Shown in pieces: positions 11,920-49,002 of a DNA stretch of 49,002 bases (the stretch's first letter is position 1; each line of letters opens with the position of its first letter). The stretch spans positions 232,501-281,502 of the forward strand of contig NHZP01000038.1 of the NCBI GenBank assembly GCA_003313425.1, given 5' to 3'. A program made the translations under genes and the position numbers. The stretch is from Pseudopyrenochaeta lycopersici (lineage: Eukaryota > Ascomycota > Dothideomycetes > Pleosporales > Pseudopyrenochaetaceae). Under the pieces are notes generated by a model, which saw nothing but the letters and a program-made list of their open reading frames with translations, did not search any database and was not told the origin of the DNA.

Positions 11920-12184
11920 TGTCAGGGTTCAATCCTTTCAGGTTACTAGACGCAGGTGAAAGGGTTCAATCCTGCCAAGTTACTAGACGCAGGTGAAAGG
12001 TAACTGTTACCTCTTACCTTTCACCAAGCTAGGTAACTGGATCGGGACTAGCCTGCTCTAGCTTATGTATATAGGCAGCACCTCTCCCCCGAAGGTGAGA
12101 GGTATCTGCTATTTTGTCCATTTCCTTTTAAATTGAGTTTCTTCAACTAAGACCGTCCCAACTGTGCGTGTTGACTGCCTTACA
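11920..12184 (+). mobile_element. Chromovirus 3' LTR (LTR3, 265-bp form)
   Basis: Identical to the 5' LTR at 4265-4529. Its right edge joins GATACATTGC of the copia-B fragment, the same junction found after LTR4 and LTR5, so it is also the left boundary of the tandem array. Confidence 0.93.
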
Positions 12185-20414: not shown

Positions 20415-20716
20415 TGTCAGGGTTCAATCCTTTCAGGTTACTAGACGCAGGTGAAAGGGTTCAATCCTTCCAAGTTACTAGACGCAGGTGAAAGGTAACG
20501 ATCCTGCCAAGTTACTAGACGCAGGTGAAAGGTAACTGTTACCTCTTACCTTTCACCAAGCTAGGTAACTGGATCGGGACTAGCCTGCTCTAGCTTATGT
20601 ATATAGGCAGCACCTCTCCCCCGAAGGTGAGAGGTATCTGCTATTTTGTCCATTTCCTTTTAAATTGAGTTTCTTCAACTAAGACCGTCCCAACTGTGCG
20701 TGTTGACTGCCTTACA
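20415..20716 (+). mobile_element. Chromovirus LTR5 (302-bp form)
   Basis: Same as LTR4 and LTR6, with the same TAAAG / GATAC flanks. Confidence 0.92.
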
Positions 20717-23700: not shown

Positions 23701-24679
23701 CCTATATAATTAAACGCTAAACTACTTAAACGCCTAGAAGTTACCCTACGAAGTTTTCTTTACTACAGCAGCCTTATACGATAGTATAATTACCTCTCTA
23801 TAGAAACTAAATTAAGCCTATCTTAAGGCATACGGTTATAAGACATTCGCCCTTACTAATAATATACTTTAAGGTAAATTACGACTCTAACGTCTTAACC
23901 CTAGAGTATAGATAGGATACCTTGTTAGATACTAATCCTCTAATATCTACAGAATCTAGATTCTATCTATAGCTAAAGTAATTAGTACTTAAGATATAGT
24001 ATTTAATAAAGAATTACTATTTAACAGGAAGACAGAAGACCTTATAGACAACCTTATATACAGCACGTTAAACAAGATAGCTGTATAGATAAGGACAGTT
24101 AAACTGCTAGAACTAACCTATAAGGAACCAGAGACCTAAACGTTCTATAAAGATAATACTATTTAAGACTCTAAAATAACCTAGTAAGATAACTAACTAG
24201 GTTACTATTAAGGGAGGAAGATTAACTATACCTACCCCTCTCTACTAACTACTCTGCCGCTAGTAGCTCTGCTTACGTAACTGTTATCTAGCGAGTATTA
24301 AGGAGATAGCTAAACAATATCTAGCTTATTAAAAATAATTCCTTAGGAAGCAGCCTTTATAGCGGGCACCTAAGCAGGGCACGTTAGAACCTATAATAGG
24401 AAGATAATTAATAAGGCCTAGATAAAGCAAATGTTAGCCTAAGAATTAAAGCTATATTAAAGTAAGTTACTACTGCTGCTAACTTCTTACATAAGAATTA
24501 AGAAACATCCTCTTTATAAATAGTTTAAGGAAGCTAAGAAAGAGCACCTTAAAAGCTATTATAAGGTAAAATTATAGTCTAAAGTACTAATAAAGAAGAT
24601 TAAACTAATAGGATAACAGATCCTTAATTATATATAGGTGTATACCTACAAACTAGATAAGAACTATTACTTACTAAAG
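20717..24679 (+). mobile_element. Array unit 3: copia-B fragment plus copia-A 5' part
   Basis: Same as units 1 and 2 except one A fewer in the run near 21210. The copia-A LTR is at 21077-21300. This copy is continuous, apart from LTR6, with the copia-A 3' part at 24982-26726; together they make one complete decayed copia-A element. Confidence 0.92.
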
Positions 24680-24981
24680 TGTCAGGGTTCAATCCTTTCA
24701 GGTTACTAGACGCAGGTGAAAGGGTTCAATCCTTCCAAGTTACTAGACGCAGGTGAAAGGTAACGATCCTGCCAAGTTACTAGACGCAGGTGAAAGGTAA
24801 CTGTTACCTCTTACCTTTCACCAAGCTAGGTAACTGGATCGGGACTAGCCTGCTCTAGCTTATGTATATAGGCAGCACCTCTCCCCCGAAGGTGAGAGGT
24901 ATCTGCTATTTTGTCCATTTCCTTTTAAATTGAGTTTCTTCAACTAAGACCGTCCCAACTGTGCGTGTTGACTGCCTTACA
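24680..24981 (+). mobile_element. Chromovirus LTR6, solo, with intact target duplication
   Basis: 302-bp form flanked on both sides by TAAAG (24675-24679 and 24982-24986), a perfect 5-bp target-site duplication inside copia-A. The second copia copy shows no insertion at the equivalent place near 29190. This is the original chromovirus insertion, later reduced to a solo LTR; the LTR junctions of the array derive from it. Confidence 0.92.
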
Positions 24982-29445: not shown

Positions 29446-29733
29446 AGGCCTTATGAACACCCAGAACTATGCGGTCTCCCCCTTTTTTCTCTTGCCCTGT
29501 GCGTTCGCTAATCTTACGAAACAGAAGGAGAACACCTAGAAGAATGCGTCCGCCCCTTTATTCTGCGACTAAACCTTTCTTAGCTAGTGCTCTAACCTAG
29601 ATTAGCTAGTACCTACGCGTAACGCGTTAGAGCATAAATCGCGTTCCTAGACGCGTAACTACGCGTTCTATATAATAGAATAAATAAGAGTAAAAGCGAG
29701 AGGGAACAAAAGAGAGAAAAAGAAAGAGTATCT
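29446..29733 (+). promoter_or_regulatory. Upstream region of TLH2 with four ACGCGT boxes and a TATA box
   Basis: Less decayed than the copia sequence. Perfect ACGCGT hexamers at 29615-29620, 29622-29627, 29651-29656 and 29661-29666, then TATATAA at 29669-29675, about 65 bp before the ATG. ACGCGT is the MluI cell-cycle box bound by the MBF factor that drives G1/S transcription in fungi; whether it works here is inference. A purine-rich stretch immediately precedes the ATG. No gene is seen on the other strand; a divergent partner such as TLH1 has would have lain where copia-B is now. Confidence 0.55.
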
Positions 29734-30225
29734 ATGATGTTTACCTTTCTCCCATCCTACAGCGTCCTTGTCTGCCGCCAGCATACCTGCGCTGTCTACA
29801 GCCTAGATCAGCACCTGGAGCGCCAGCATAGTATACCTGCAACGCAGCGGAGAGAGCTGCTCGCAGCCTACCAAGGCCTTAACTTAAACCCGCCAGCGGA
29901 GGTCCCTCTCCCTCAACCAAACAGCCCGCCTATCGCGGAGCTAGGTTCCCCACAGGACGCATTTCTCTGCTGTAATCACGTCGCTAGCAGTAGCAGTAGC
30001 AGTAGTAGTAGTAGCACTACTACTAGCAAGCGCTGCGGCTTTCTAAGCACAAGCCGTAAGTGTATACAGAAACATATAAACAAGCAGCACGGTATAAAGC
30101 TTACACGATGGTCCTCTGCCTCTGCGACCTCGTACCAGGAGCACGCTACGCAGCTATGGAGGCCAGTTAAGGTGCAGACTTTTTTCCGCGAACGGCGCTA
30201 CGTCCGGTACTTTGTAGTACAGGCA

Positions 30226-30360
30226 GAGGTACAGGAGCAGGCACAGGAGCAGGCACAGGAGCAGGCACAGGAGCAGGCACAGGAGCAGGCACAGGAGCAG
30301 GCACAGGAGCAGGCACAGGAGCAGGCACAGGAGCAGGCACAGGAGCAGACGCAGGATCAG
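30226..30360 (+). repeat. 12-bp coding minisatellite (Gln-Glu-Gln-Ala) in TLH2
   Basis: About ten copies of CAGGAGCAGGCA, in frame, giving Gln-Glu-Gln-Ala repeats. TLH1 has nothing at this place. Confidence 0.9.
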
Positions 30361-32550
30361 CATTCGGGGCAGCAACAACAGCAGAGAAAGCGGCTAGACC
30401 CTAAGGAGAGGCTCACTAGCTTGTTAGCTGAGTGGGAAACTATTGAGCGTCAGGATAACAAGGCAATCAGCCAAATCGCTGAAGAGGCCTTAGCCTACGA
30501 CCGCACTGGCTGGTTAAAACGGACGCAATGGGAGCAGCACCTTAAAGCCTACCCAGACTGGAAGCAGCTCGCCTACGCTGTGCGACCGCCAGGCGACGAC
30601 GAGCCAGTATTACAATGTACGGTACGCCGCGTTGAAGAGGTAGTTGAGCAGGCTGTCGAGGGGCTCAGCTCGCTATCGATTGAGACGTTGCGCTGGCTAC
30701 GTAGTGCAACACCACAGCAGTCTGATTGTCGCCCTCTAGGTCGTATGCAGAAGATAGAAAGCCAACGTCGCGCAGCACGGCTCTGGGCACGACTTATTTG
30801 CTACTGCCTGCGGTTAATTGCTGCCGGAGAGAAAGAGAAGGAGGAGGAAGACGCAGAGGACGGATTCCAGCATATCGTCCGCCTATTCCCCTGGCACGGA
30901 GGGCAGAAGCAGGAAGCAGTAAAGCTCTGGAGACTACTGACTGCTGCCGACGGAAGCAGTCACGTAGCTGAACAGCAGAAGGCTATCCTAAGCCTATCTA
31001 AGGCACTGTTCTGCCAGGAGGTATACTGTCAGCCGTTTCATAGCGGTATAATCCACTTCCTCGCCGCGCTAGCTATTAACCCAGATACGAACCGACTACG
31101 CGACGCCTCGCAGTTCTCAACGCTTCTTAGCTCAATCGTCTACTGCGTCCGCGTCCTAGCAGCTGAAGCTTTCCTCCCATCTACCCAGCGCGCAGAGCAG
31201 GGTGCTGCTAAGACAGCTGCTCTACTACATCAGCGAGCGCGCTATCTCGTCGATGGCTCGCATAGCCCGATGAGCATTATGATTAGTCTACTTGCCTACG
31301 CTAAGCATATCTCTCTACGTACCCCAGGCCGTATTGCAGGCAGTATGTGGTGGTCTCCTAACCGCCAGACGTTCTTCCTTAAAGGCCGGCCTATTAAGCT
31401 AGAGCGCTTTCGCGCTATAGCACAAGGACTAGTAGCGAAGGCAGAGCAGATCCTTTAGGGGGAACTGCTCTAGGTAGAGGAGCAGGCACAGCGACGCTCT
31501 ACTAACCTAGCAGCTATCCAAGACAATGTAACAACAGCACAGCGAGCAGGCTGCTTCTTAACACTAGCTCAGCTTAAAGAGGGCAGGGACTAGGTTCTCG
31601 CGCGGCTCGCGAGCGTGCCAGCTGCGCAGCAACTATATACATTAAGAGGGGAGCAGGAAGGCGAGGAGGGCAATTAAGGCAGCCAAGTCTACCAAGCTAA
31701 GGCGTCTATACTGTAGCATAAGCAACAGGTGCAGCGATATCTCCAGCGCGTGGGACGCTTCCTTGAGCTACTCTGTCTCGCGGTCCATATCACAGGCGGG
31801 CAGCCAGCGCGCGGGCCTGAGTTACTGTTAGTTCGGTGGCGTAATGGGGTGCTCCAGGATCGTAACCTCTACGTAATTGATGGGCAGGTTACGCTAGTCA
31901 CCCGCTACCACAAGACGCAGGCGCAGTGGGATCGACCTAAGGTAGTTCCGCGCTTCCTGCCAGAGGCAGTAGGGCAGTTAATCGCAGCGTACCTGCTCTA
32001 CGTACGGCCTCTGCGGGCGATGCTGCTAGCTAGCCAAGGTAAAGTAGCTTTAGCATTAATGAACGACTACCTCTGGGCAGACAAGGATAAGCTCTGGGAT
32101 ATAGATAGGCTTACGCGTGCGTTAGCGGTCGAGTCAGTAGAGCTTCTAGGCACGCGGCTGACGATCCAGGAGTACTAGCACGTAGCTGTAGGTATTGGGC
32201 GCGAGGTAGTAGGACAGCGGTTTGCAGCAGGCTATTGTCAGGAGAAAAAGAGTCGCGGTAGTCACTGGGCGTTTGCGCCTGAGGTAGACGGTGGCAGTGA
32301 CGGCGACGAGGACGGAGAGGATCTGCTTAAGCTACAGAGCGGGCGTTTTACGACGACAGGACTAGTAGCTTATACTGTACAGGCTGATATAGTACAGGGG
32401 CTAAGTGTTCGTTCAATTGACGTCTTCCGCACGTTAAGCTATAGCTGGCACGCCTTCCTTAGCTTCCTTCTACATACAGAGGCGAGTAGAAAGAGGAAGC
32501 AGGAGCAGAGCAGCCTAAGCGATAGAGACGAGCCGCAGAAGAGGCAGCAG

Positions 32551-32760
32551 ACGCAGCAGTTCCAGCAGACGCAGCAGTTCCAGCAGACGCAGCAGTTCTA
32601 GCAGACGCAGCAGTTCCAGCAGACGCAGCAGTTCCAGCAGACGCAGCAGTTCCAGACGCAGCAGTTCTAGCAGACGCAGCAGATGCAGCAGTTCCAGCAA
32701 TTCCAGCAATTCCAGCAGTTTGAGCAGTTTCAGCAGTTTCAGCAGTTCCAGCAGTGGCAA
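32551..32760 (+). repeat. 18-bp CAG-rich repeats replacing the Walker A region of TLH2
   Basis: Repeats of CAGTTCCAGCAGACGCAG decaying rightwards to shorter CAGTTC/CAGTTT units. They lie where TLH1 encodes helicase motifs I and Ia, and the frame changes within them. One or more CAG codons read TAG. Confidence 0.85.
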
Positions 32761-33436
32761 CAGTGGCAACTGAGGCAGAATTAAAGGCAGTAGTTAATAA
32801 GTCGCATGTTGTTATTACAGCAGACTCGTGGCGGACAAAGCTGCACAGGCTAAAGGATCTTCGGCTGCTACCGTGCCAGCAGGTACTACTTACAGCTACG
32901 TTGCCGCCGTCGCAGGAGAGGCAGCTACAGGAGGTAATGTTAATGCGCGGAGCAACAATTATCCGCGCAGAGACAACGCAGCGACGTAGGACGCAGTATA
33001 CAGTAGTACGCTGCAGGCGTAAGGTAGAGCTGCAGGAGACGGCTGTAGAGCTCGCGCGCAGGCTGATGGACAAGGCAAGGTTGCTTAGTAGCGCGCAGGT
33101 AGCAGAGGTAGCAGGAGGACGAGAGGTAGCAAGAGCGAAAGGGGTTGTGTACTGTCGCAGCAAGGCGCTGTGTGAGCAGCTAGCAGGGCGGCTAGGCTGC
33201 GTAGCGTACCACGCAGGCATGCCCGAGCGTGCAGAGGTACTAGAGAGGTAGAGACAGTCAGGAGGGCTAATCACGTGCACGTCAGCGCTTGGAGTAGGAG
33301 TAGATATCGCGCAGGTGCTCTTCACGCTGCATGTAGAGAGGCCGTAGGGGATGGTTGATTTTGTGCAGGAGAGCGGGCGAGCGCGAGGGGCAGGCAAGGC
33401 AGTGATTCTAGTGGTGCAAGGACAGCAGTGGCAGAA

Positions 33437-33560
33437 AGCTGAGGCAGAGGCAGAGGCAGAGGCAGAGGCAGAGGCAGAGGCAGAGGCAGAGGCAGAGGCA
33501 GAGTCAGAGGCAGAGGCAGAGGCAGAGGCAGAGGCAGAGGCAGAGGCAGAGGCAGAGGAG
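33437..33560 (+). repeat. GAGGCA hexamer array (Glu-Ala) in TLH2
   Basis: About 20 copies of GAGGCA, one with GAGTCA, coding Glu-Ala in the helicase frame just after motif VI. Its place corresponds to the start of the TLH1 C-terminal region. Confidence 0.9.
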
Positions 33561-33974
33561 CAGCAACCGATAAACGATAGCGAGGTAATGGACGCGTTTA
33601 TCAGCACAGTAGGTTGTCGAAGAGCAGTAATAAGTTAGTATATGGACGGCAGGCGATTATCTTGCAGACAGCTACAGGCAAGAGCAAATACAGGAGTAGA
33701 CGGCGCAGCAGACAGGGCAGCAGAAGGCGCAGAGATAGCGTTCTGCGATAACTGTGAGGAGCAGGAGTATGGAGGGCAGAAACAGTGGCAGGACGAGGAG
33801 CAGGTACAGGCGAGGCAGGAGCAGGTAGTACAGGCGAAGCTCGATGAGCTATCGCAGACGACGTGTCCATACTGCTGGGGTATGTTGCATAAAGTATTCA
33901 GGAGGGAGGAGGGCAAGGTGGCAGTACAGCAGGAGGAAGAGGAGGAGGAGTATGAGGCAGGGCAGTAAGAGGAG

Positions 33975-34165: not shown

Positions 34166-34646
34166 GCAGAGAGAGCGCGAGGCGGCAGTACATAGTCTGT
34201 GGCAGTGTCCGCGGCTTGGGCAGGAGGGGTTGCAGGATATAGAGGAGCTGCGGAGCAGGGTAAGGTATAAAAAGGAGGTTCAAACGTGCTGGAAGTGTGG
34301 GATAATGGAGTATCTCTGCGGCAGAACGCAGGGTAGTAAGCAGAGCAGCAAGCAGAGCAGTAAGCAGAGTAGTAGGCAGGCAGATTGCGCATGGCCGAAC
34401 GTAGCGATAGCAGTACTATATGGGCTACAAGTAGCAGCAGAAGCAAAAGCAAAGCTAGAGGTAGGTAGAGGAATTCAAGATAGTAGGCTTTGGGAGGTAG
34501 GATATCGAGGGCAGGTAGATAGTAAGGAGGAGCTAGGTAGATAGATAGGAGAGGTATATCAAGATAGGCGGATTTTTAAGCATATTACTAGTAAAGGAGT
34601 AGCTAGTATTATATATAGTATCTTAGAAGAGGAAAGAAGGAAATAG

Positions 34647-37080
34647 ATATAGTTTATATAGTATTTATAAAAGAATAGTTAACTAGTTTAAATAAGAAAA
34701 AAGAAGAAGAGAGTAAATAATAGCTAGCTATATTAAATAAGAAAAAGAAGAAAGAGAGTAAATAATAGCTAGCTGTATTAAATAAGAAAAAGCAGAAAGA
34801 GAGTAAAGTAATTTAATATAAGATATTAGAAAGAAAGTTAAGAATAGCTAGCTACTTTAAATAATATATAGAATAGCTATAATTAGGTTAATTTTTAGAA
34901 AAGTTAAGTTTATATATAAGTTTTAGTAGAAAATACTATATAAATAATAATAGTAAGAAGCTATGATATATAAAACTATTCTAGAAATATAGTAGTATAA
35001 CTTTTATAGTAGTATAACTTTTATAGTAGTATAATAAAAAGTTATAAAAATATAATAGTTAAAAGATAAAAAGAAAAGAAGAAGAAAAGTATTAGACTTA
35101 ATAATTAATAATATTATAGTAAAGAATAGTTTTTAAAGTAAAGTAAATAAAATAGTAGTAAAGAAGAATATAGTAAGTAAAGTTATAGTAAGTAAAGCAG
35201 AAGTAAGTAAAGTAGAAGATAAAATAGTAGTATATAAGATAGTAGGAAGTAAGATAGTAGAAAATAAGATAGTAAGTTAAATTATAGCTAAAGTAGTAGT
35301 AAGTAAAACAGTAGATAATATAGTAGTAGGTAATATAGTAGATAAAGTAGTAGATAGGAAAGTAGTAGGTAAAGTAGTTAATAAGTAAGTAGGTAAAATA
35401 AAAGTAGATAAAGTAGTAGTAAAAGAAGTAAAAGTAAATAATAGGTTAGTAGTATTAATAGGAAAAAAGAAGAGGAAAGTAAAATAATTAAAATATAGTA
35501 TAAAGACAAGTAAATAATAAGTAATTATAATTAAAAGAAAGAGGTTAAAAAGAGTAAAGTACTAAAAGATAAGGTAAAAAGCGTAAAGTAATAAAATAGA
35601 GGTTAATAAAGAATAGATAGTAAGTAAGTAGTATTGATTAAAAAAAAACAGTATAATAATATAAAAGAGTATAGTAAATAGAGTTATTATAAGTAATAGA
35701 GTAGATAGTATAGTAGAAGTAATATTATAAAAGTTTAGAATTTAATAAGAATAAAATTATAGGAATAGTTTCGAATTTAATAAGAATAAAATTATAGGAA
35801 TAGTTTTAAAGTTAATAAGAATAATTAAAGTAAGTAGTAAGTAGTAAGTAGTTAAAGACTAAGCTGTAAATAGTATTATAAAAAAAATAAAAGTAAAGTA
35901 ATATAATATAGTAGAGAAGAATAGTAAGTTATAAGTAATAGAGTAGGTAGTATAGTAGAAGTAGTAAAATTAAGATTTAGAATTTTAAGAAAATAGGACA
36001 GTAGAAATAGTTTTAAATTTATTAAGAAATATTATTTAAAGTTAGTATAAGTAGATAGTAGTACGTAGAAAGTAGTTTTATGTTATTAAGGTTAAAAAAA
36101 GTAAATTAATAGAATATAGTATAAGAGTAGAAAGATAGTAGGTATATAGTTTATAGTTTTAGTTAGTTAAAAAAGAGATTAGTAATTTAATATAGTATAG
36201 AAGGAGATAGATAGTAGAGTTTTAGTTTGTAGTTTTATAGAGTTAAGAGTTAAGAAAACAAAGTAATAGTATAGAAGTAATAGTATAGAAGTAATAGTAT
36301 AGAAGTAGATAAATAGTAAGGTTCTCGTAAGTAGTATTATAGAGAAAAGAAAAAGAAGAGTAAAGTAATTATATAAAGTATTAAGAGAGATAAATAGTAG
36401 GGTTTCGCTAACTAGTTTTATAGGGGTAAGAGTTAGGAGAGTAAAGTAATATAATATAGTATAGAGAGAGAAAGATAGTAGGGATTTAGTAACTGCTTTT
36501 GTAAGGGTAAGAAAGAGGAAAGTAAAGCGATAGGATATAGTTTTAAGAGAGAAAGATAGTAGGGATTTACTAACTAGTTTTATAAGGGTAAGAAAGAGAA
36601 GAGTAAAGTAATAGGATATAGTATTAAGATAGTTAGGGTTCGCTAACTAGTTTTATAGGGGTAAGAGTTAGGAGAGCAAAGTAATTGTATATAGTATTAA
36701 GAGGGAAAGATAGTAGAGATTTGCTAACTAGTTTTATTTAGTTAAGAGTTAGGAGAGTAAAGTAGTATAATAGAGTATTAAGAGAGAAAGATAGTTAGGA
36801 TTCGCTAACTAGTTTTATAGAGGCAAGAAAGAGAAGAGTAAAGCGATAGGATATAGTATAGAGGGCGAAAGATAGTAGGGATTTGCTAACCGCTTTTATA
36901 AGAATATAAAGAGGAGAGCAAAGTAATACAATATAGTATAGGGAGTAGAAGGAAGTAGGGATTCGCTAACCGCTTTTATAGGGTTATAAATAAGGAGAGT
37001 AAAGTAATATAATATAGTATAGAGGGAGAAAGATAGTAGGGATTCGCTAACCGCTTTGAATAGGAAAAAGAAAGAGGAGA
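34647..37080. repeat. Tail 1: AT-rich, C-poor repeats downstream of TLH2
   Basis: About 2.4 kb with no plausible gene. The + strand has only about 0-3 C per 60 bases in the lines I counted, while G remains common, so it is strongly strand-asymmetric. 34690-34810 holds about three copies of a roughly 50-bp AATAAGAAAAAG...TAGCTAGCT unit; 35740-35810 holds two copies of a 33-bp unit; 36400-37080 holds about nine units of an 80-bp minisatellite with a TTCGCTAACCGCTTTTATA-like core. The right-hand units keep more C than the left-hand ones (TTCGCTAACCGC against TTTACTAACTAG). Confidence 0.75.
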
Positions 37081-37417
37081 GCGAAGCGATACTGCCATTA
37101 TTCTACGAACAAAGACAGTGTATTTGTTCGCTTTGCCTATGTAAAATTTAGCGTGGGCACGGACACTGGAGTGTATTTGTTCGCTTTTTTAGAGTTAATT
37201 TGTTCGCTATTCCTGGGGTTAATAATTGATGCAACGCTTACAGAACGTGCACGAAGTATATCTAAATTGTATGTTAGATTTCTAGAGTAAACAGAGATAG
37301 ATTGGGTGAGTAGAATATAGATGAAGTTTGGGTACCGAAGTTCGCGATGTTGGGAGACACTATCGATAAGATCTGTAGCACGACGAAGGAAGTTAAGCGT
37401 AGGTCTAAGTCTAACAT
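37081..37417. other. Spacer between tail 1 and the gene pair, with TTTGTTCG repeats
   Basis: Normal base composition returns here. CGAACAAA (37106-37113) and TTTGTTCG (37123-37130) form perfect 8-bp inverted arms around 9 bp, and TTTGTTCG recurs directly at 37176-37183 and 37199-37206, each followed by GCT. The rest is unremarkable and serves as the 3' flank of the minus-strand gene. Confidence 0.6.
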
Positions 37418-39130
37418 TTACTCTAGAGGATGGAATAATTCGAGCAAAGTTAGCTGGCGCAACCGAGGAGCTGGAGTAGGACTCTTCAGCGAAGCATGAG
37501 CTTGCGATTCCTCGACGCCGCCGTCAACGCTGTCGTCGTCTTCGCTGTCTTGAATTTCTTCCACCTCGTAGATTGTTGCTGGCGCCTCTGCCTCAATGCT
37601 CAGCGTCTTCTTCTCACTAATGGGCCCGCCAGCAATTCCCTCTGGCCCCAACCAGCTCTCAAGCGCCTTGCTAGCAGCGCAGATGTCTGGGTGCACCTTT
37701 TTTACCAACTTAATCCAGACATGCAACTGGCCTACACGAAGGGTCCGTTCAATCCACCGATTAGCAATCTCGTCGTGTGGTATCAGGGTCAGAATGCCCC
37801 AGCCTAACTCCTGAATAATTGAGTACCAGCGCATTGCTTGCCCTAAACGTCGTCTAAACACCAGCTTAGCCTTCTCAGTAGCATTAGGGTTGACCAGTTC
37901 CAACAGCGCTGCAATTGCCTCGGTGCGGACAGGACCTTTTCCGTACCGATTTCGCGTCCTGTCATTGCTGGAGATGAAGTCGTTGTGCCGGATCTGCGCC
38001 ATTTTGTTGGTATATGCTTGGCCTAGGAGAGCAGATGCCCATCGAGACTCGATATGGACGGCTGCCAGCTCTTCCTCGTACCGTGTGCACATGTTCCAGG
38101 CGAAGCAGAAGTCTCTATCGGCATCGTCGCGCACATCTAGCAGTTGCAAGCGCTTTGCACCCACATGACTCTTGCTCTGGCTGCCAGCGAGCTCGCCGCC
38201 GCTCCTAAAGGGTGAGCCGCGCTCTCGCCAAGCTTGCAGGAACTGACCAGCGTGGTACCGAGAGGCGTGGTTTCCAAGCACGCGCGCTTTCTCTAGAAGG
38301 CTACAAGCTGTGAGGTAGGGTGTTTGGGTAGAGCTGTAGAAGTCCGTGCCGTCGGAGACAGACTGCTTAATAATCCAGGCGACGACCGCCTCGTCCTGTT
38401 GCGCAATAGAGGTGTAGGCAGCCTGCTCTTGAACAGAAGCCTTGTCGTTAGGTGCTACTAGGCTAAGAGCAAGCCGCTTCTTCGTCTTTGAAATCACGAG
38501 TTTCTTGCTGCGTTCCCGCTCAGCACGGCGGTTGTTGTTTGTGACGGTAGTGGTGCGCAGAGGGGGGTCTTCTAGCTGTTCGTCTGATTTGCTGGGCTCT
38601 GAGCGATGAGGGCTGGGTGGATGCGTCTCTTCGGTGTCTGTTCGAGCGCGCTTTGGCGAATAGGCTGGCACAGATGGGGGTGGCCGCTTTCTGTGTTGCG
38701 AGGGTGGAGCAGAGGGCTGTTGCAAAGGGGAAGCAGAGGGCTGCTGCGCAGATGGCGGCTCTTCCATCCCGTCTTGCGCAAGCGACTCGGCCGCGCAGAC
38801 AAGGCGATTCCAGGCATCGTCGGATAGAGTGTTATCGGCGAGCGTCTCTCGCAGCAACCAGATAGCTGACAGCACAGAGTGGGCGATGAAGACAGGCTTG
38901 CAGACGCTGGTATCGTTGGGGATCAGCCACCCAGCGCTGTGCGGGCAGAACAACGTGCTGTGCTGCGAGCCCGAAACCGTAGCCTGGCGAAAAAACAGCT
39001 TCTGGTAGTCTTCATTCGGTGGCTCGTACCCGTAGTTGTGGGCAAAATCAGCCTCAATGGCTAGAGGAAAGCTCCGACGGCCGCCGTCAAACTGCTCTGC
39101 AGCTTTGTTTAATAGAGCTGCCCAGTGCAT
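37418..39130 (-). CDS. Unrecognised 570-residue protein with C-terminal PIP-like motif, divergent partner of TLH1
   Basis: I do not recognise the family. I start it at the ATG reading from 39130 (MHWAALLNK); the frame extends seven codons further, but only with a TTG. Residues 1-115 look globular (aromatics, HW, FCPHSAGW). About 120-195 is a Pro/Ser/Gln-rich linker with KRAR. About 200-222 is strongly basic (RRAERERSKK, KTKKR), a likely nuclear signal. About 225-500 is a second, mostly helical globular region rich in Trp/Tyr. About 520-545 is acidic (DSEDDD). The last residues contain Q559-x-x-L562-x-x-L565-F566, close to the PCNA-binding QxxhxxFF consensus but with Leu at the first aromatic position. 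No enzyme motif, membrane segment or signal peptide is seen. No RIP damage. It faces TLH1 across a 274-bp shared promoter, so the two are probably co-regulated; role in replication or telomere biology is inference. Confidence 0.8.
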   Translation of the reverse strand: MHWAALLNKAAEQFDGGRRSFPLAIEADFAHNYGYEPPNEDYQKLFFRQATVSGSQHSTLFCPHSAGWLIPNDTSVCKPVFIAHSVLSAIWLLRETLADNTLSDDAWNRLVCAAESLAQDGMEEPPSAQQPSASPLQQPSAPPSQHRKRPPPSVPAYSPKRARTDTEETHPPSPHRSEPSKSDEQLEDPPLRTTTVTNNNRRAERERSKKLVISKTKKRLALSLVAPNDKASVQEQAAYTSIAQQDEAVVAWIIKQSVSDGTDFYSSTQTPYLTACSLLEKARVLGNHASRYHAGQFLQAWRERGSPFRSGGELAGSQSKSHVGAKRLQLLDVRDDADRDFCFAWNMCTRYEEELAAVHIESRWASALLGQAYTNKMAQIRHNDFISSNDRTRNRYGKGPVRTEAIAALLELVNPNATEKAKLVFRRRLGQAMRWYSIIQELGWGILTLIPHDEIANRWIERTLRVGQLHVWIKLVKKVHPDICAASKALESWLGPEGIAGGPISEKKTLSIEAEAPATIYEVEEIQDSEDDDSVDGGVEESQAHASLKSPTPAPRLRQLTLLELFHPLE

Positions 39131-39404
39131 TTCTGGTTTTTGTACTGGCAATGAGGTTAAGAGCTGGGTTCTTGACGCAGGCTATGGGGAAGGGGGTGTG
39201 GTGTTGCTGGGCTCCTGACGCGTTCGCGCCACGGCACCGAAAGTCAGGCCGTGCACAGATGTAACACGACACCCTCACCAACCAGCGTTAGCGGAGCTAG
39301 AAACGCAATTAAAAGAATGCGTCGATCAATATAGAGAGGAAAAGCAAACAGACCGACGGACGTGTTACATACAGCCCGCCCGTGTACCTCCTGCTCCTCA
39401 CACT
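39131..39404. promoter_or_regulatory. Shared divergent promoter with a 10-bp inverted repeat and an ACGCGT box
   Basis: ATGTAACACG at 39260-39269 is the exact reverse complement of CGTGTTACAT at 39361-39370, with 91 bp between. One ACGCGT box lies at 39218-39223. The TLH1 start has A at -3 and G at +4, favourable for translation. No strong TATA box is seen for either gene; AATATAG near 39329 is weak. Confidence 0.6.
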
Positions 39405-42400
39405 ATGGAGACATTCGCGCAGCTGTTTGAACACCTGCCTGAGCTTCGAGTGGTCGTCTGCAAGCCATGTGCCAGCGCTATACCACCAGCGCAGGTTGTT
39501 ACGCACCTTAAAGAGCGCCACCCCAAGGTAGCAGTCGCCACGCGGAAGCACCTGGCAGCAATCGTGCATGCGCTGCCTGAGCTTGCGCGGGTTCCAGGAG
39601 ACGTTCGTGTGCCAAAGCCGGCCAAGGAGCCCATCGCTGGCCTCAAAATCCGAGAGGACGGGCTGGTATGCTTGTCGGAGAGATGTTGGTATACCTGCAT
39701 CTCGGTGCAAGGCATGCAGAAACACTGCAAGGATGAGCATGGCTGGGTGAACAAACAAAAGCGAGGGGGGGATATGAGGCAGAAGAGCAAGCATTCGAGC
39801 AACCGAATATGGCGAGACAGCCAATCCTGCCAGCGCCTGTTCAGAGCTGTCAGCTGGCCGGCGTATGTTGCGGTTGAGACAAGCGTTGGGGGTACGAACC
39901 GAGAAGACATCTCCCAGAGAGTCAAGGCAGATCGCCAGCACCAGCGGGAGAAGCAAGCGGCAGCAGCAGCGCAAGAAAAGATCCAAGAGAGCGTCCGTTC
40001 GCAAGCCGATCCGTGGCTAGCGTTGACCGAATGGGTTCCTCACTTGAAGCGCAGCCCCAGGGCAGCGCTTCTGCGCGCTAAACGGCCAGCGGGTGGGGAG
40101 GTGGATGCGCATGGCAAAGAAGAAGACGCATCAGACGACACAGGCTTACGCGATGTTTGCAAAGCTATGGAGCGGCTGATACGGAAAGCCTTCGACAGCA
40201 GCCGGGCAGAGGTTGTAGGCAGACTTACGCTGGAGATTATCGAGCGACGCGAGGCGGGCGCAGAGTCGAACGAGCGGCCCTTCTACGCAAGGCATCGAGT
40301 CCGCACGATCAAGAAGTACAGCCAGAAGTTGGTGAGCATCCTCTGCTACCTGTGGCGCACAAACGGTCAAGCCGACCGGCCGCCATACAAGCTTACCGGC
40401 ACGCAAGACGCGCTTCTGTGGTCACTCCAGCAACTTGCGCGCTCCGCCGACGCTGCAAAGAAGGGGCGGCTGGAAGAGCGATGTCTGCGTCTTTGGATCG
40501 CCCTGCTCGACCACACGCTGCTGGACGATGAGCACGAGAGCGCACTGCTGAGCGGGGTGGCTGTCCTCGGCCTCAAGCCTGATCACCACGGCGGTGGGTG
40601 GGTTCCGGCGCACGAGTTCTCGCCAACACTGTCCGCTCTGATCACCACCTCAAAAGCGCTCGTGGTGCATCATGCCCGCTGCCAGCGAGATGAAGCGCTT
40701 CAGAAAGACCCTGACACAGCGCCCACTGCCTATGAGCTGGTTAGGGACATGGCTGAACGGTTTATGACGCTGTCTGACTTCAAAGGCACGCCCAGTCCCA
40801 TGAATCGAATGCTGCGCTTGCGTACGCTAGCTAGAACACAGGCAGGGCGACGCAACGCTCCCGGCATCGTGTCGTGGGATAGAGACCGTCTTCTCATTGA
40901 CAAGCAGAGCTTTTCGCTAGCCGACCTCCGGTCTATGGTTAAGGGGCTGTGCGAGACGGCGCGAATACAGTTACTCAGGGACGTCCTACTCTTGGATCTA
41001 GACGACACGGACTGCGTGCGGCCTGGGAGCACCACGCTTCCAGAGGTGTCCGTGGACAAACTCGTCGACCAGCCAGCCGAGCTGGCTACGGGCTGGAGCT
41101 TTCTGAAGCACCCCAGCAACCAACTAGACAGGTGGCAAGACTGGCTTCTAGACCGGGTATTGGAGGAGGCCCCGCTAAGGGAGAGATTCATCCGTGGGAT
41201 GGACAGCATGCAGCAGCCAGAGCGGACGCTATGGCGCGACGACGCTGTAGCCAGATACATGAAGGGTGTGCGTCGATTTAAAGAGAGCCTCTTCACCCTC
41301 GTGCACCTCTCTGCCGGTGCACCCGCGCGCGGGACAGAGATCACCTCGATACAGTGCGAGAACAGCGCAGATGGGGCCGGGTGCCGAGGGGTGTTTGTGG
41401 AAGGTGGTCTGGTATCCTTCACCACTACGTACCACAAGGGGTACAGCTTTAGCAAGCGTGTCAAGACCATCCACCGCTACGTTCCCTGGGAGGTGAGTGA
41501 GCTGGTGGTATACTTCCTTGGGCTCGGCCGACCGTTCATAGACGATCTCCAGATGCTGCACAACGGCGTTGCCCGCCCTACCGCTTTCCTCTGGGAGCCA
41601 GAACCAGAGGAGCAGTGGGAGGACGAGAGCGACAGCGAAGAGAGCGACGACGGAGACGAGTACGGCGATGCTGACCGTGAGAAGGCACAATCAGCCAACC
41701 CAGACGGGTACTGGGGTACCGATCGCATACGCCGCGTCCTGCGCGAGCAGACCTTCCAGTACATGAGCGCCGCCCTCGGCACCCGCGCCTGGCGGCATGC
41801 CTACCCGGCCATCCACCGAGAGCTGGCCAAAGATGGACAGGCACGCGACTGGCTGGAAGTGCTCTACTGGAACAAAGCGCCTACGACGAGCCATGCGCGA
41901 GCGTTGCAGTCGGGTCACAGCCTTCAAACTGAGGAAGGCAACTACGGCCGCTCCATGATGGAGTCTCCCTTTCAGACCATGGTCGAGCGGGAAGAGTTCC
42001 GGCGCGTGAGCATGGACTGGCATCGCGTGCTGGAGTTTGCCTCCGCCTGGGAGGACGGCCGCATGCACCCTGGTGTCCGCGCGGAGATGATAGCGCAGCA
42101 AGAGAAGCAGGCGCTCCAGCGCTGGTCGTCGCTCGCGATGGTGGACCTCAAGGTAGAGTTCAGGCGACTCGCCGGGCGGCCGGACGCCGAGTATCGTGGC
42201 AAGCAGGAAGAAGGCCTCAGGGCTGTGATGCAGCGACGGCTGCGCGTGCTGGTCGTGATGGCTACCGGCACAGGCAAGAGCATGCTGTTCATGCTGCCCG
42301 CGTCCATCTCGCCGGGCGGCGTCACCGTTGTCGTTGCTCCGTTGAACGCCTTGCGAGACGATCTGCAGGACCGCTGCGACCTGCTCGGCATTCCCTGCGC

Positions 42401-43586
42401 CAAGTGGGACGGAAGGAGACCGCCTTACTGGGCTCGAATTGTGCTGGTCACTCCGGAGAGCGCGGTTACGAAGGGATTCGGCAGGTTCATCGACGAGAAG
42501 CGCATGCTACATCAGCTGGATCGTATCGTGATAGACGAGTGCCACGTGCTGCTAGAGTCGACGGAGGACTGGCGGCCAGACATCCTCAAGATGACGGAGA
42601 TGGCGGAGAAGGGGACGCAGGTTGTCTACCTGACTGCGACCTTGCCGCCAACGCTGCAGCCCGCCTTCTTCCAGACCGCAGGGCTCGATGCCCAGACTGT
42701 GACCATATGCCGCGACGAACGCACCACGCGGGCGAACATTGCGTACCAGGTGCTGGAGTATACACGGGGCACGCTGGATAAGGCACTTGTTAAGCTTGTG
42801 GCTGCGAAGAGGAGGAAGTACGGACTAGAGGCGCAGATCATCGTCTATTGTCCAACGGTGGACAAGACTAAGCGGCTTGCGAAGCTTCTGCAGTGCTCTG
42901 CCTACTACCGCCAGATGGATACAGACGAGGAGAAGGCACGCATGGTGCGAAGCTTTACCTCAGGCGTAGAGAAGCTCTGCACAGCCACCAACATGCTAGG
43001 CCTTGGGCTCGACGCTGCAGGCGTCCGGGTAGTAATCCACGTTGCTATGTGTCTCCTGTTGCTCCAATATATGCAAGAGAGCGGCCGGGCCAGGCGAACG
43101 GGGCTGGACAGCGAGTCGATCGTTCTAAGAGCGTGCTATCTGACAAAAGAGGGGAGGGTAAAGAAGGCGCTCGGCCACAAGTTAGAGCGCCCTGCGAAGG
43201 AGTTCCTGACTGCCGAATCGTGCCGGAGAATTGCGATAGACAGGCACATGGACGGCAGACTGAACAGGCAGCAATGCGAGATGGGAGAGTCGAAGTGTGA
43301 TCTATGCGAGCAACACCCCCGCGGTACCAAGCGGCAAGGCGTCGAAGAAGAGCGGGAAGAGCCAGAGGCGACGCATGCTGATACCGCAGCGGCTGCAGCA
43401 GAGGAGCAGCGCAGAGAGCTTAAGCAAGCTATGGCCGTGGAAGAGCGGAGAATCAAGATCCAGCAGCGGCGAAGGACGGAGCAAGTGATATACGAGCTGG
43501 AGCGGCTAGAGCAGCACTTTCAGCGCTGGAGCAACGCGTGCGCCATCTGCATGGTCACTCAAGCGGACCCAGCGCGCCACAATTAG
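39405..43586 (+). CDS. TLH1: zinc-finger / tyrosine-recombinase-like / RecQ-like helicase fusion
   Basis: 1,393 residues, intact. Residues 19-39: C-x2-C...H-x4-H finger (C19, C22, H34, H39). 89-112: a second finger (C89, C94, H107, H112); such N-terminal finger pairs occur in OrsD-type (DUF3505) fungal proteins. About 600-850 has the tyrosine-recombinase order: R642 in PARGTEI, K678 in TTYHKG, R794-x-x-R797-H798 in TRAWRHAY, then G837-H838-S and Y847 ten residues after the Gly, the spacing of the GHS...Y box in XerD. Box II has Arg where His is usual. From about 925: helicase with Walker A 953-959 (ATGTGKS), motif Ia APLNALRDD, D1044-E-C-H, TATLPP from 1077, LGLGLDAAGV, and Q1224-ESGRAR (motif VI). 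DECH followed by DWRPD, and QESGRAR, place it near RecQ. Further cysteines (C1298, C1301) follow. Likely nuclear DNA-acting protein of the telomere-linked helicase type. The frame probably once ran on to 44015. Confidence 0.93.
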   Translation: METFAQLFEHLPELRVVVCKPCASAIPPAQVVTHLKERHPKVAVATRKHLAAIVHALPELARVPGDVRVPKPAKEPIAGLKIREDGLVCLSERCWYTCISVQGMQKHCKDEHGWVNKQKRGGDMRQKSKHSSNRIWRDSQSCQRLFRAVSWPAYVAVETSVGGTNREDISQRVKADRQHQREKQAAAAAQEKIQESVRSQADPWLALTEWVPHLKRSPRAALLRAKRPAGGEVDAHGKEEDASDDTGLRDVCKAMERLIRKAFDSSRAEVVGRLTLEIIERREAGAESNERPFYARHRVRTIKKYSQKLVSILCYLWRTNGQADRPPYKLTGTQDALLWSLQQLARSADAAKKGRLEERCLRLWIALLDHTLLDDEHESALLSGVAVLGLKPDHHGGGWVPAHEFSPTLSALITTSKALVVHHARCQRDEALQKDPDTAPTAYELVRDMAERFMTLSDFKGTPSPMNRMLRLRTLARTQAGRRNAPGIVSWDRDRLLIDKQSFSLADLRSMVKGLCETARIQLLRDVLLLDLDDTDCVRPGSTTLPEVSVDKLVDQPAELATGWSFLKHPSNQLDRWQDWLLDRVLEEAPLRERFIRGMDSMQQPERTLWRDDAVARYMKGVRRFKESLFTLVHLSAGAPARGTEITSIQCENSADGAGCRGVFVEGGLVSFTTTYHKGYSFSKRVKTIHRYVPWEVSELVVYFLGLGRPFIDDLQMLHNGVARPTAFLWEPEPEEQWEDESDSEESDDGDEYGDADREKAQSANPDGYWGTDRIRRVLREQTFQYMSAALGTRAWRHAYPAIHRELAKDGQARDWLEVLYWNKAPTTSHARALQSGHSLQTEEGNYGRSMMESPFQTMVEREEFRRVSMDWHRVLEFASAWEDGRMHPGVRAEMIAQQEKQALQRWSSLAMVDLKVEFRRLAGRPDAEYRGKQEEGLRAVMQRRLRVLVVMATGTGKSMLFMLPASISPGGVTVVVAPLNALRDDLQDRCDLLGIPCAKWDGRRPPYWARIVLVTPESAVTKGFGRFIDEKRMLHQLDRIVIDECHVLLESTEDWRPDILKMTEMAEKGTQVVYLTATLPPTLQPAFFQTAGLDAQTVTICRDERTTRANIAYQVLEYTRGTLDKALVKLVAAKRRKYGLEAQIIVYCPTVDKTKRLAKLLQCSAYYRQMDTDEEKARMVRSFTSGVEKLCTATNMLGLGLDAAGVRVVIHVAMCLLLLQYMQESGRARRTGLDSESIVLRACYLTKEGRVKKALGHKLERPAKEFLTAESCRRIAIDRHMDGRLNRQQCEMGESKCDLCEQHPRGTKRQGVEEEREEPEATHADTAAAAAEEQRRELKQAMAVEERRIKIQQRRRTEQVIYELERLEQHFQRWSNACAICMVTQADPARHN

Positions 43587-44015
43587 AAGGATTGTTCAAA
43601 GGCTAACGAAGCGCAGATTAAGTTGATAGAAGCTAAGGTCAAATCTATACACCATGTAAAGTGGGAGAAGTATGCACGGTGTTACTATTGCTGGGCGCCG
43701 CAAGCCATCTGCGACAAGTAGGAGGAGACAAGTGCACAGGGTGCATTCAAGACACGAGGGATGGGTTTTCCTTGCCAGTATGGCGGGGTGCTTCAGCAAG
43801 CAGTAGCTGCGCTGCTTGCCTTTCAGCAACCGACGTGCACGCCATGGCTAGAGCAGCAGATGCAAGACGCCGCGATTGTGCACGGCAGCGATGAGGCCCA
43901 GCTTTACAAGTAGCTTGGACTGAAGATCAAGATGGGCCAGAGGGACGCAAGCCAGATGTGCCGTTTTTTATATGCTTAGGAGGAGGGGCATGTGCACTCA
44001 TATAAAGCAGACTAA
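43587..44015 (+). pseudogene. Decayed C-terminal extension of TLH1
   Basis: In frame with TLH1, translation stays coherent after the TAG at 43584: a CYYCWAPQAIC block, CQYGGVLQQAVAALL, a Lys-Ile-Lys-Met-Gly stretch, HVHSYKAD, and TAA at 44013-44015. Only three further stops intervene or precede it (43584, 43719, 43911 and 43977 are all TAG, the first being the annotated end). The CxxC...C pattern resembles the TLH2 C-terminal CWKC...LCGRT...DCAW region, so the extension is ancestral. TAG can arise from CAG or TGG by a single C-to-T or G-to-A change. TLH1 as it stands would lack this probable zinc-binding end. Confidence 0.75.
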
Positions 44016-44032
44016 GAAGGCTCTACTCCATA

Positions 44033-44066
44033 TAACCCTAACCCTAAACCTTAGGTTAGGATTAGG
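44033..44066. repeat. Interstitial telomere-like block with inverted orientation
   Basis: TAACCCTAACCCTAAACC (44033-44050) is followed directly by TTAGGTTAGGATTAGG (44051-44066): CCCTAA repeats running into TTAGG repeats. It lies just downstream of the helicase gene. Confidence 0.85.
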
Positions 44067-44353
44067 AAAAGGGCATTATAGACTGACTTGCGGCCGGGTT
44101 AGAAGTTAGAATAGTAGAAACTGACTTGCGTCCCTATCGGATCAGAAGTTAGAAACGAGTTAGTTGGGTGGCATACAGAGCAACAACATGTGTTAGGTGT
44201 TTGTAGCATTCATAGTATATGTTGAAGGAACTAGCAGCTTAGTAGAGGAGGGAGGGTAGACTAGATCGCCCGCCGGAGAACAGGAGAGTACGACTAGAGA
44301 CTAACTTTTACTTAATAGTTAAGTAAAAGTCAGAATATACAAACAGACACAGG
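44067..44353. other. Spacer with short repeats and a 27-nt perfect hairpin
   Basis: No gene. ACTGACTTGCG occurs at 44082 and 44120, AGAAGTTAGAA at 44101 and 44144. ACTTTTACTTAA (44304-44315), TAG and TTAAGTAAAAGT (44319-44330) form a perfect 12-bp stem with a 3-nt loop. Confidence 0.65.
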
Positions 44354-44608
44354 AGGTTCCCCTAACTCGTAGAAGTCCCCCAACCCGTAGAAGGCCCCCC
44401 AACCCGTAGAAGACCGCCCAACCCGTAAAAGTCCTCTAACCTGTAAAATACCCCCTAACCTGTAGAAGGCCCCCCTAACCTATAGAAGACCCCCCTAACC
44501 CATAGAAGACCCCCCTAACCCGTAGAAGACCCCCCTAACCCGTAGAAGACCCCCCCAACCCGTAGAAGACCCCCCTAACCCGTAGAAGACCCCTCTAACC
44601 CGTGCAGG
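44354..44608. repeat. 20-bp telomere-like minisatellite
   Basis: About 13 tandem units close to ACCCCCCTAACCCGTAGAAG, with scattered changes at the left end. Each unit contains a CCCTAACCC core, i.e. one telomere repeat and a half in C-strand orientation. No spacers of the CRISPR kind. Confidence 0.88.
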
Positions 44609-45060
44609 AGAGGCACATTAGAAAGAAGAGGAGAAAAATAGTGTGGTACAAGAATGCAGCAGAACCCGTACAAAAGTGCAAAGAGAGATGTCAAAGGAAA
44701 TAGAGTAGGTAGTTAGCCCGTTAGTGTAGAACGCGGAGCGTAATAGAGAGGTTAGTAGTAGGCCGTCTAGTACAGGAAAAGAAGCTAAGCGCAGCGAGAT
44801 AAAAGAACAAGGGTAAGGAAGAAAGGGTAGGTGTTATAACGAGAAGAGAGGGCGGCCGTAAAGCGTAGAAGAAGGAGAAGGCAGTATAAAGTTCCGTTCA
44901 GGTCAGAACCGAAATTAGAAAGATAACACCAACCCAGTCTATAGAAGAAGAAGAGAGATACGCGTAAGGTGTCACACGAAGAGGTATTGTAAGAAAGAGA
45001 GAAGTATATAGAGAACCGCTTAGGTTAGGAGATAAATAGGATAAAGGCAACCGCTTAGCT
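44609..45060. other. Transition zone before the C-less tract
   Basis: No gene seen. Purine-rich, but C is still present at roughly 13 percent by my count. The next 60 bases (45061-45120) contain no C at all, so the change is abrupt. Confidence 0.6.
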
Positions 45061-48000
45061 TAAAAGAAGAATAGTAGGAAGATAAAATTATAGAAAAAGA
45101 AAATATATAAGAAAAGAGAAAGAGAAAGAAGCAGATAAATATAACAGTAGAGTTAGTAGTAGTACAGTAGATTAGTAAAGTAAAAGTAAATAGAAATAAA
45201 AATAATAAATAATAAAATAGTACAAGGGTTAGAGATAAGGTAAAAATAGTTAGATTTAAATAGAGAGAAAGGGATAAAGAGTATAGTAGTAATAGAGTAG
45301 GTAGAGATAAGGGTAAGTTGGAGGAAAATAAGAATAAAAAAATATAAAAATAAGGTAGAATTTAGAGAATAAAGGTAGATAGAAAGGGTTATAATATGGG
45401 ATAAGGAGTTATTAAAGGAAAAGAAGAGTACGTAGAAAGAAATTATATAAGAATTAGAGTTTAATAGATTAAAAGTTAGTAAAGAGTAATTTTTAAGGTA
45501 GAGGTGTAGTAGAAAAAAAAATAAGATTTAAGAAGGTAAGAAGGAATAAAGGAAGTAAAAGGTAGGAGGAGAAATAAGAAAAGATTAGAGGTTAGGAGTT
45601 TAAAGTAAGGAAGTAAGAAGGATAAAAAAAAGTGGGAGATTAGAGGTTTAAAGGAAAGAAAAGAAGAAAAGAAAGAAAAAGAGTAAAGAAGAAAGATAAA
45701 AGTAAGTAGAGGTTTATAAGTAAGTATTAGGGTTTAGAAGAAGTAAAAAGTTTTAAATTTTAGAGTAGAAGAAGGATAAGGAGAGTATAATAAGTTTTAA
45801 AGGAGTTATAAGAAAAGTTAAAGAAGTTTAGGAAGAAAAATATATAAAAAAGGAAGGTAGAGTAAGGTAAAGTTAGAAGAGAAAGTAAGAAGATAAAAGT
45901 AAAAGAGAGAGTAGGTATAAGTGTAAAGAAGTTAGTAGTTAAAAAGAGAGTAAAAGAAAGGGAACAGGTAGAAAAGGGGGAGAGGGTTAGGAGGAGGGAA
46001 GGAGAGTAAGAAGAGTAGAGAAGAGTAGAAGAGGTTTGTTAAAGAAGGAAAAGAGAGTAAAGTACATTAAGAAAGGAGTAAAAAGAAGAAGTAGAGGATA
46101 GTGTAAATGAAAAGAGTTAAAAAGAAGGAAAGGTAGAGGTTTAAGAAGAGTAAGAAAGAGAAAGAGGTAGAGAGTAAAGAGTAGAAGAAGAGAAAGAGAG
46201 GGGAGAAAGGGGAAGTAGGTAGTGTAGAAGAGTAGGGGAGAGGGTTATAGTTAAAAGAAAGAGGTAAAGGAGAAGGTTAAAGAGAAGAAGAGAAGAAGAA
46301 AAGGTTAAAGAAGTTAAAAAAAGTTAGTTAAGAGTAGGTGTAAGTAAAGAAGGGAAAAGAAAGAAAGGTATAAGTTTAAAGAGAAGGAAGGTTGTAAGAA
46401 GAGTAAAAAAAAAAGTAAAAAGAGAGTTTTAAAAAGAGAAAAAAGAGTAAGGAGGTAAAAGAGTAAGTTAGGTAAAAAGAAAGAAAGGTAGCAAAGGGTT
46501 AAAGTTATAGAGAGGGTAAGGATTGTAGATATTAAAAAGGGTAGAGTAGGAGGAGAGAAAGGATAAGTATTAGAAGAGGAGAAAATAGGTTAAGAGAGTT
46601 AGAGTTATAGGAAAGGTTAAAGGGTTAGTTAGTTTAAAAGTAAGAGAAGAAAAGTAGAAGGTAAAAAAAGTAGAGGAGTAGAGTTGTAAAAGTAGTGAAA
46701 AAAGAGAAAAGAAGAGTAAGAGAAGAGTAAAAGGGGAGAAGGAAAAAAGAAAGGAGTAAAAGAGTTAGTAGAAGAAAAGAGGGTTATGGTGTTAGAAGAG
46801 AGTAAAGGAGAGAGAGAGAGAGTAAAAAAGAAGAGAGGTTTAGGGTTTTAGAAGAGAGAGAGTTAGTTAGAAGTTAAAGAGGGGTAGAGGAGGGGGAGTT
46901 AAAGAGAGAAATAGAGAGTAAGTAGAGAAAAAAAAAGTAGAAGATTAGTAGGAAAAGATAAGTAGAGAAGGGAGTTTAAAGAGAGAAAAGAGAAGAGAGA
47001 AGAGGTAGAAAGGAAGTAAAAGAAGAAAGTAAAGGGTTAGGGTTTTAAGAGAAAGAGAAGGTTAGAGTTGTAAGAAGAGAGAAGAAGAGGAGGGAGAGGG
47101 AAGAAGAAGAAAAGGGTAAGTAAGTTAGGGTTAAGAGGGTAAGTAAGGTAAGGTAAGGTGTTAGAAGTAAGGGTAGAGAAAAAAGGGGGAGGTAGAAGGT
47201 AAGAAAGGAGAGAGTTAAAGGTTAAAAAGAAAAATGTAGAAAGGGAGAGTAAAAGGGTTAGAAAGGGTTAGAGTGAGGGTAGGTAAGCGGTAGAGAAAGA
47301 GAGGGTTAGGGTTTTTAAAAGAGTAAGAGTTAGGATTTTAAGAAAAAGTTAGAGAGTAGTAAAGTAAGAGAAAAGAAGAGGAGAAGGGTTAAGAGTTAAA
47401 GGTGTTAAAGAAGGGAAAGAGATAAAAGAGAGGGGAGGGGTTTAAAAGAGAAGTTAAGTAGTAGAAAGAAGAGTAAAATAGGGGGAAGAGGAAAGAGAGG
47501 TGTTTAGGGGAAGGAAGAGTAGAGAAGGAGAAGAAAAGGAAATTTAAAGGTTTTTAAGAAAGGAGGAAGAGAGTAGAAGGATAAAGAGTAAAGGTTATAG
47601 AAGTAAAAGGTAGAAGTAAGAAGAAGAAGTAGGAGGGAGTATAAGGGAAAAGAGTTAAAAAAGAGGAATGTTAGGGTTTAAGAAGAGTAGAAAAAGGAGA
47701 AGAAAAGTAGGAGTTAGGAGTAAAGAGTAGAGAAGAAGAAATAGGGGGAGAAAAGTAGAAGTAAAGGGTTGTAGGGGTTTAGAAGGGTAGGAGAAGTAAG
47801 AGGGGTAAAGAAAGAGTAAAAGAGTAAGAAAGTGTAAGAGAGAGGGTTAGAGTTATAAGAAAAGAGGTTAGTTAAAGAGAGAGAAAGAAAGAAGAAGTTA
47901 TAGAAGAAGGAAAAGAAGGTTTAAAGTAGTAGGAAAGGAAAGGTAAGAGTAAAAAGGAGAAGTAGAGGGAAAGTAAAGAAGTTTAGAAAGAGAAGTAAGT

Positions 48001-49002
48001 AGTAAAAAGAAAAGAGTAGAGAGTAGGTGTAAGTAGGAAAAAGGAAGTAAAGAAAAGTAGAGAGGTAAAGTTATAAAAGTAGTAGAAAGAAGAGTAAAGA
48101 AGTAAAAAGGTTAAGAGTAAGTAGAAGAAAAGAGAGTTAAAAAGAAAAAGAGAGAGAGAGGGTTAGTAAGAAGGTTAGAGAAGAGTAGAAAAGAGGTGTT
48201 AAAGGAAGAAAGGAAGGGTAGAGGAAGTAGAGAAAGAAAAAGTAGAGAAGAAAAAGTAGAGGGTTAGTAGAGAAAGGTAAGTAGGAAGGAGTTTAAAAAG
48301 AGGAGAGAAGGTAAGGTAGAAGGTTAGAAAGAAAGAGAGAGGTAGAAGGAAGGAAAAAGAAGAAAAGGAGAGAGTAAGTAAGTAAGGTAAGGTGTAAAGA
48401 GTTAGAAGTAGGGGTAAAGAAAAAGAGGGGAGGTAAAAGGGAGGGGGGAGTTAGGTAGTAGAGGAGAGGGAGTAAAAGAGAGAAAAGAGTAAAAAAGAAG
48501 GGGTTATAGTAGAGTTAAAAGGGAGTTAAAGGTGTAAGAGAGGTAAGTGTAAAGTTAGAAGAGTAGTAAAGGGTTAAGAAAGAAGGTAGTAAGGGTAAGA
48601 GAAAAGAAAAGAGTAAGAGGGTTAGGGTTTTAGAGGAAGAAAGGGTTAGGGTTTTAGAGGAGGAGAAGGTTAGGGTTTTAAGAGAAAGAGAGTAGGGAAA
48701 AGGAGAGAGTTAAAGAGAGAAAGTAGAAAGAAAGGGTAGGTTTTTTATAGAAAGAAGAGTAGAGTAAAGTAAAGAGGAGAGGAAAAGGTAAGAGTAAGGA
48801 AAAAAAGTAGAGGAAGTAGTAGAAGTGTAGTTTAGAAGAAAAAGAGTAAAAGTGTTAGGAGTAGAAGAAGTAAAGAAAAAGAGAAGAGAGTTTTGTTAGA
48901 AAGGTAGAAGTAAGAGTAAAGAGTAGGAAAGGAGGAAGAAAGAAAGAGGGAGAGGGTTAGGAGGAGAGTAAGGGTAAGGGTAAGAGGTAGAGGGTAAGAG
49001 AA
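45061..49002. repeat. Tail 2: purine-rich tract almost free of cytosine on the + strand
   Basis: About 3.9 kb to the window end. I count about nine C in 45061-49002 and none after about 47288, while G stays near a third and T is present throughout. Short runs of GGGTTAGGGTTTTA recur (near 47034, 47300, 48620, 48645), as do AGGGTAAGGGTAAG forms at the very end, all related to TTAGGG. No open frame of note, no clean long-period repeat visible by eye. By its G-strand orientation and position, this is telomere-proximal sequence running toward the chromosome end. Confidence 0.85.

Follow-up and report, generated by a model that had tools for sequence, protein, structure and literature searches.

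A conserved predicted tyrosine-recombinase domain joined to a RecQ-type helicase in a probable telomere-linked gene family of fungi

We analysed a 49,002-nucleotide stretch of the Pseudopyrenochaeta lycopersici genome (contig NHZP01000038.1, hereafter the window), which is likely to be a fungal chromosome-end region; the window itself contains no telomere array. Its principal feature is the putative telomere-linked helicase (TLH) gene TLH1, a single open-reading frame (ORF) on the plus strand at positions 39405–43586, which encodes 1393 amino acids (aa). To our knowledge, fungal telomere-linked RecQ-like genes have no settled job. Within TLH1, and all on the plus strand, an OrsD domain (PF12013, Pfam E-value 3e-21) with a CxxC...HxxxxH pattern readable in the sequence occupies aa 6–113 (39420–39743), a mostly helical region that may be a core-binding (DNA clamp) domain lies at aa 226–480 (40080–40844), a predicted tyrosine-recombinase catalytic domain spans aa 478–890 (40836–42074), and a RecQ-type helicase core, found by Pfam and PDB sequence matches, covers aa 930–1240 (42192–43124). 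Pfam matched the OrsD domain and DEAD/Helicase_C (aa 934–1233; PF00270, 2.8e-16, and PF00271, 2e-11), with no match between them and no transposase family in the scan. Among the best 60 of 106 PDB sequence matches, the top ones (aa 930–1314) were to RecQ-family helicases (RECQ5, RecQ and WRN) and the lower ones to RNA helicases. Named relatives come from Pyrenophora teres and Ascochyta rabiei (81–88% identity), in keeping with a most likely fungal origin of the window in or close to the Pleosporales. TLH1 is ~140 codons shorter at its end than its closest relative, P0003 (1536 aa), which shares 87% identity with it over 202 aa across the ORF end; the homology runs on in frame through in-frame stops, as a decayed 3′ continuation at 43587–44015 (plus strand).

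The initial annotation of this DNA had proposed a tyrosine-recombinase signature in the middle of TLH1, and R642 (in PARGTEI), K678, R794, R797, H798, G837, H838 and Y847 all lie exactly where it placed them. Because these residues were named from one sequence, relatives provide an honest test of them, for which the set comprised 160 sequences (TLH1, 157 database proteins and two further loci). The predicted catalytic Arg I, R642 (41328–41330, plus strand, as are the codons that follow), is kept in 160/160, the predicted beta-hairpin Lys, K678 (41436–41438), in 159/160, the predicted catalytic Arg II, R797 (41793–41795), in 159/160, the predicted catalytic His, H838 (41916–41918), in 156/160 and the predicted nucleophile, Y847 (41943–41945), in 159/160. 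Free variation among homologues at R642, R797 or Y847, which would have counted against the proposal, was thus not observed. All five residues are present together in 154 sequences, the six exceptions carrying Tyr for the His (three), Gln for R797 (one) or a gap (two). R642 and Y847 are invariant in an alignment of 38 rows, and in another of 86 rows, many at only ~33% identity, R642, K678 and R797 are found in 86/86, Y847 in 85/86 and H838 in 84/86, with positions 794 and 798 variable. The residues follow the Arg, Lys, Arg, His, Tyr order of the superfamily with the Tyr ~9 past the His, a spacing of 9 residues holding in 84/84 of those 86 rows that have both. A Glu three residues after R642 is kept in 159/160, matching the RxxE box typical of Xer-type enzymes. 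The proposed RxxRH motif survives in part: R797 is conserved, whereas R794 (21/160) and H798 (38/160) are not. Position 794 (A 70, Q 41, R 21, S 10, P 7, K 7 among the 160 sequences) does not hold the His or Lys that stands three residues before the second Arg in many tyrosine recombinases and type IB topoisomerases, where it is common, not universal. The five predicted catalytic residues are thus conserved beyond chance.

In two structure models of the middle domain, VIA-align ranked recombinases first, with best scores of 10.2 for Xer and 8.8 for Cre (certain Cre rows down to 7.6); type IB topoisomerases scored below the best Xer and Cre rows, and families absent from the VIA-align listing are not thereby excluded. 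Rather than a structure unrelated to tyrosine recombinases, the predicted models have the catalytic fold shared by the tyrosine recombinase/topoisomerase IB superfamily, and we predict from them a tyrosine-recombinase-like fold for the domain. K678 lies in the second model between strands 192–199 and 210–216, adjoining a low-confidence stretch. The region ahead of the catalytic domain is mostly helical, as is also seen in recombinases. A profile of the 38-row alignment recovered 42 stretches from viral contigs, none a relative, and a profile of a further alignment against PDB sequences returned helicases throughout its best 60 of 269 rows, because the rows of that alignment were full length. 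Rfam gave no match.

The RecQ-like helicase reported in the same frame after this domain is borne out by the Pfam and PDB matches and by its Walker A and DE[CA]H motifs. In 147/158 proteins the two domains stand together in unchanged order, a fraction biased upward because such searches preferentially return sequences of comparable length; the other 11/158 lack the helicase, either truly or through truncated gene models. Of the 147 fused proteins, 143 carry Walker A and 142 carry DE[CA]H, and the linker between the domains measures 43 residues at the median, with quartiles of 42 and 45. Across 139 proteins the distances for one domain track those for the other with a correlation of 0.96, a value reached in 0/500 permutations. 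A gene-model or assembly artefact as the origin of the fusion was rejected on this upward-biased count of fused proteins, and a stable fusion of the predicted recombinase domain with a RecQ-type helicase is supported.

Judged from sequence and models, proteins that combine the RecQ helicase with this middle domain likely work both as DNA unwinders and as recombinases. We favour, with moderate confidence, the reading that TLH1 is a three-part protein that cuts and rejoins DNA via Tyr847, its helicase opening or remodelling the recombined DNA. The finger-like OrsD region would, by its family, anchor the protein to subtelomeric DNA; Arg642, Lys678, Arg797 and His838 would activate the phosphate, and Tyr847 would attack it and remain covalently attached to the 3′ end, after which strand exchange with a second site and unwinding or branch migration by the helicase might follow. 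The outcome may be copying or relocation of the TLH unit between chromosome ends, either alone or along with a divergent partner gene, which would make TLH genes the recombinases of subtelomeric mobile units, beyond repair helicases. A conserved predicted cutting-and-joining site within a RecQ-like protein offers telomere-linked helicases a concrete, testable role. If active, TLH1 would be a one-chain helicase-recombinase, the tyrosine-recombinase counterpart of fungal DDE-RecQ transposons, and would account for the spread of TLH families and the remodelling of fungal chromosome ends. More tentatively, fungal TLHs could form a new enzyme class of helicase-recombinases that move themselves, as the agents of a so far unrecognised superfamily of tyrosine-recombinase elements colonising chromosome ends, with fungal subtelomeres partly built by them.

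TLH1 resembles Xer, XerH, XerA and Cre in predicted fold, in the R-K-R-H-Y set and in the 9-residue His-to-Tyr spacing, and shares with Xer the RxxE past the first Arg; it differs from Xer and Cre in a long insert between the Lys and the second Arg, in not keeping the His of HxxR, and in its fused helicase. The Crypton and Starship captain recombinases are fungal tyrosine recombinases of mobile DNA, although we know of no RecQ helicase on them, and a Pfam test for them gave 0 families in the TLH1 domain at E-values up to 10. The protelomerase TelA belongs to the tyrosine-recombinase fold family and acts at chromosome ends. RecQ-like genes have been described beside fungal telomeres since the 1990s, in Ustilago in 1998, as listed among the references of PMC4522978 and PMC10532341; the accessible parts of these papers also report RecQ repeats at M. 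graminicola telomeres (PMC4522978) and an OrsD domain in Ustilago UTASb (PMC10532341). Going by descriptions, UTASa/UTASb, Magnaporthe TLH and S. pombe Tlh1/2 are RecQ-type like TLH1 and form repeated subtelomeric families, as TLH1 and its relatives may, and the available portions of their descriptions mention no recombinase domain. Such a domain in telomere-linked helicases is undescribed in the parts seen of PMC4522978, PMC12857005, PMC8381367, PMC10532341, PMC11457142, PMC10799480, PMC9587614 and PMC3627910, and our literature searches, to which subscription papers and bioRxiv were mostly closed, returned no title, opening of an abstract or passage seen that names one. In the excerpts seen, Academ DNA transposons are mobile elements with a RecQ helicase (PMC3627910) and KolobokH couples a DDD/E transposase with a RecQ helicase in fungi (PMC9587614). 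Both resemble TLH1 in their helicase, by description, whereas Kolobok has a DDD/E transposase where TLH1 has a predicted tyrosine recombinase. As fungal transposons joining RecQ to a DDD/E transposase exist, a mobile helicase-recombinase is plausible; by analogy, KolobokH plausibly fits a mobile TLH1 and is its nearest precedent.

The 413-aa domain matched 0 families in Pfam, NCBIfam and PHROGs at E-values up to 10, Foldseek against viral models and PDB gave no match at an E-value of 0.001 and no significant E-values, and hhalign, run forward and reversed, scored five named recombinases no better than ten control proteins, leaving no detectable sequence similarity to Xer or Cre. The argument is weakest where it passes from an enzyme to a mobile unit, a step drawn from the copies, their decay and the gene pair. 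Three TLH copies or fragments lie in the window. TLH2, a decayed copy of a diverged TLH (about 29722–33650, plus strand), had been cited as conserving the pattern; it does keep the Arg, the Lys and, by eye, a Tyr ten residues after a Gly, while the R797 position is a stop codon, the catalytic His is replaced (also by eye) and additional stops interrupt the frame, so we set it aside as a weak second witness. The other copy is a fragment at 2184–4264 (minus strand) with 81% nucleotide identity to 40140–42233, where 391/423 differences from TLH1 are C-to-T or G-to-A, with changes at 69–71% of CpA, 43–46% of CpG and 1–4% of CpC and CpT sites, a signature like that of repeat-induced point mutation (RIP). 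It was rejected as proof of TLH transposition as it lies between two long terminal repeats (LTRs), and a retroelement may therefore have carried it.

The same fold and residue evidence would serve equally a host recombination or end-maintenance factor of chromosome ends, in which the middle domain breaks and rejoins DNA catalytically with no mobile unit, and TLH-like genes are upregulated in telomerase-negative Ustilago maydis, according to the part of PMC10532341 that was available; the copies, however, diverge and decay as a selfish family does, even within this single window, and we regard a host role as unlikely. Somewhat less likely again is a type IB topoisomerase-like domain that relaxes or decatenates DNA together with RecQ, a one-chain counterpart of RecQ-topoisomerase partnerships. 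These topoisomerases share the fold family and the R-K-R-H-Y pentad, but the best Xer and Cre rows score higher, notwithstanding the lowest Cre rows, and the mostly helical region in front is recombinase-like. Ndc10, SroF and YopR keep a recombinase-type fold for DNA binding only; a similar loss of catalysis in TLH1 is improbable, given that all five predicted catalytic residues persist together in nearly every relative, which is unexpected of a non-catalytic domain. A motif arisen by chance in a helical domain of some unrelated kind would suit the missing profile support and the Foldseek result, yet exactly the predicted residues are conserved and two models rank recombinases first, making it very improbable. 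The helicase-recombinase reading is the one we retain.

Upstream of TLH1, a divergent ORF of 570 aa (37418–39130, minus strand) is assigned by precomputed annotation to PF28402, for which 139 relatives were found, with several members per Pyrenophora teres assembly. For 10/39 TLH relatives the longest contig is identical in size to that of a partner relative (120 among the matches listed), against 0 to 3 matches when sizes were shifted by 1–30 bases; in some family members, at least 10 cases, TLH and partner therefore probably lie on one contig, and the partner is there a probable neighbour of TLH. This does not hold for L001 and L002, two contigs with TLH genes. Searches of the partner protein against PDB and Pfam returned nothing convincing and, by sequence, no known fold. 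Although their database records name Planctomycetaceae and Erythrobacter genomes, L001 and L002 have the look of contaminating fungal DNA, as does a plant-named record with a TLH (Tanacetum, P0181).

No repeats clearly bounding a TLH1 unit were found in 37000–45100. Just past TLH1 (44034–44066 and 44359–44603) are opposing interstitial telomere-like repeats, then an array of ~20-bp units (CCCCTAACCCGTAGAAGACC). Tracts poor in C on the plus strand occur at 45501–49002 (4 C) and 34501–37000 (72 C), and in L002 at 9001–9784 (4 C), each downstream of a TLH gene; those in the window are purine rich with GGTTAGGG-like bits, and L002, from another source, has the order TLH, TLH, C-free tract.

At 1882–4529 the reversed TLH fragment sits within a pair of LTR-like repeats with TG...CA ends, apparently a subtelomeric gene piece captured in a retroelement. 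It is followed at 4530–11919 by a Ty3/Gypsy-type pol ORF (reverse transcriptase, RNase H, integrase and a weak chromo match), whose preceding ORF may be gag. A tandem array at 11920–24981 consists of an LTR-like repeat and a ~3.96 kb low-GC interior with a period of ~4265 bp; its copies are 99.8–99.9% identical despite their AT-richness, so the array was perhaps amplified after mutation.
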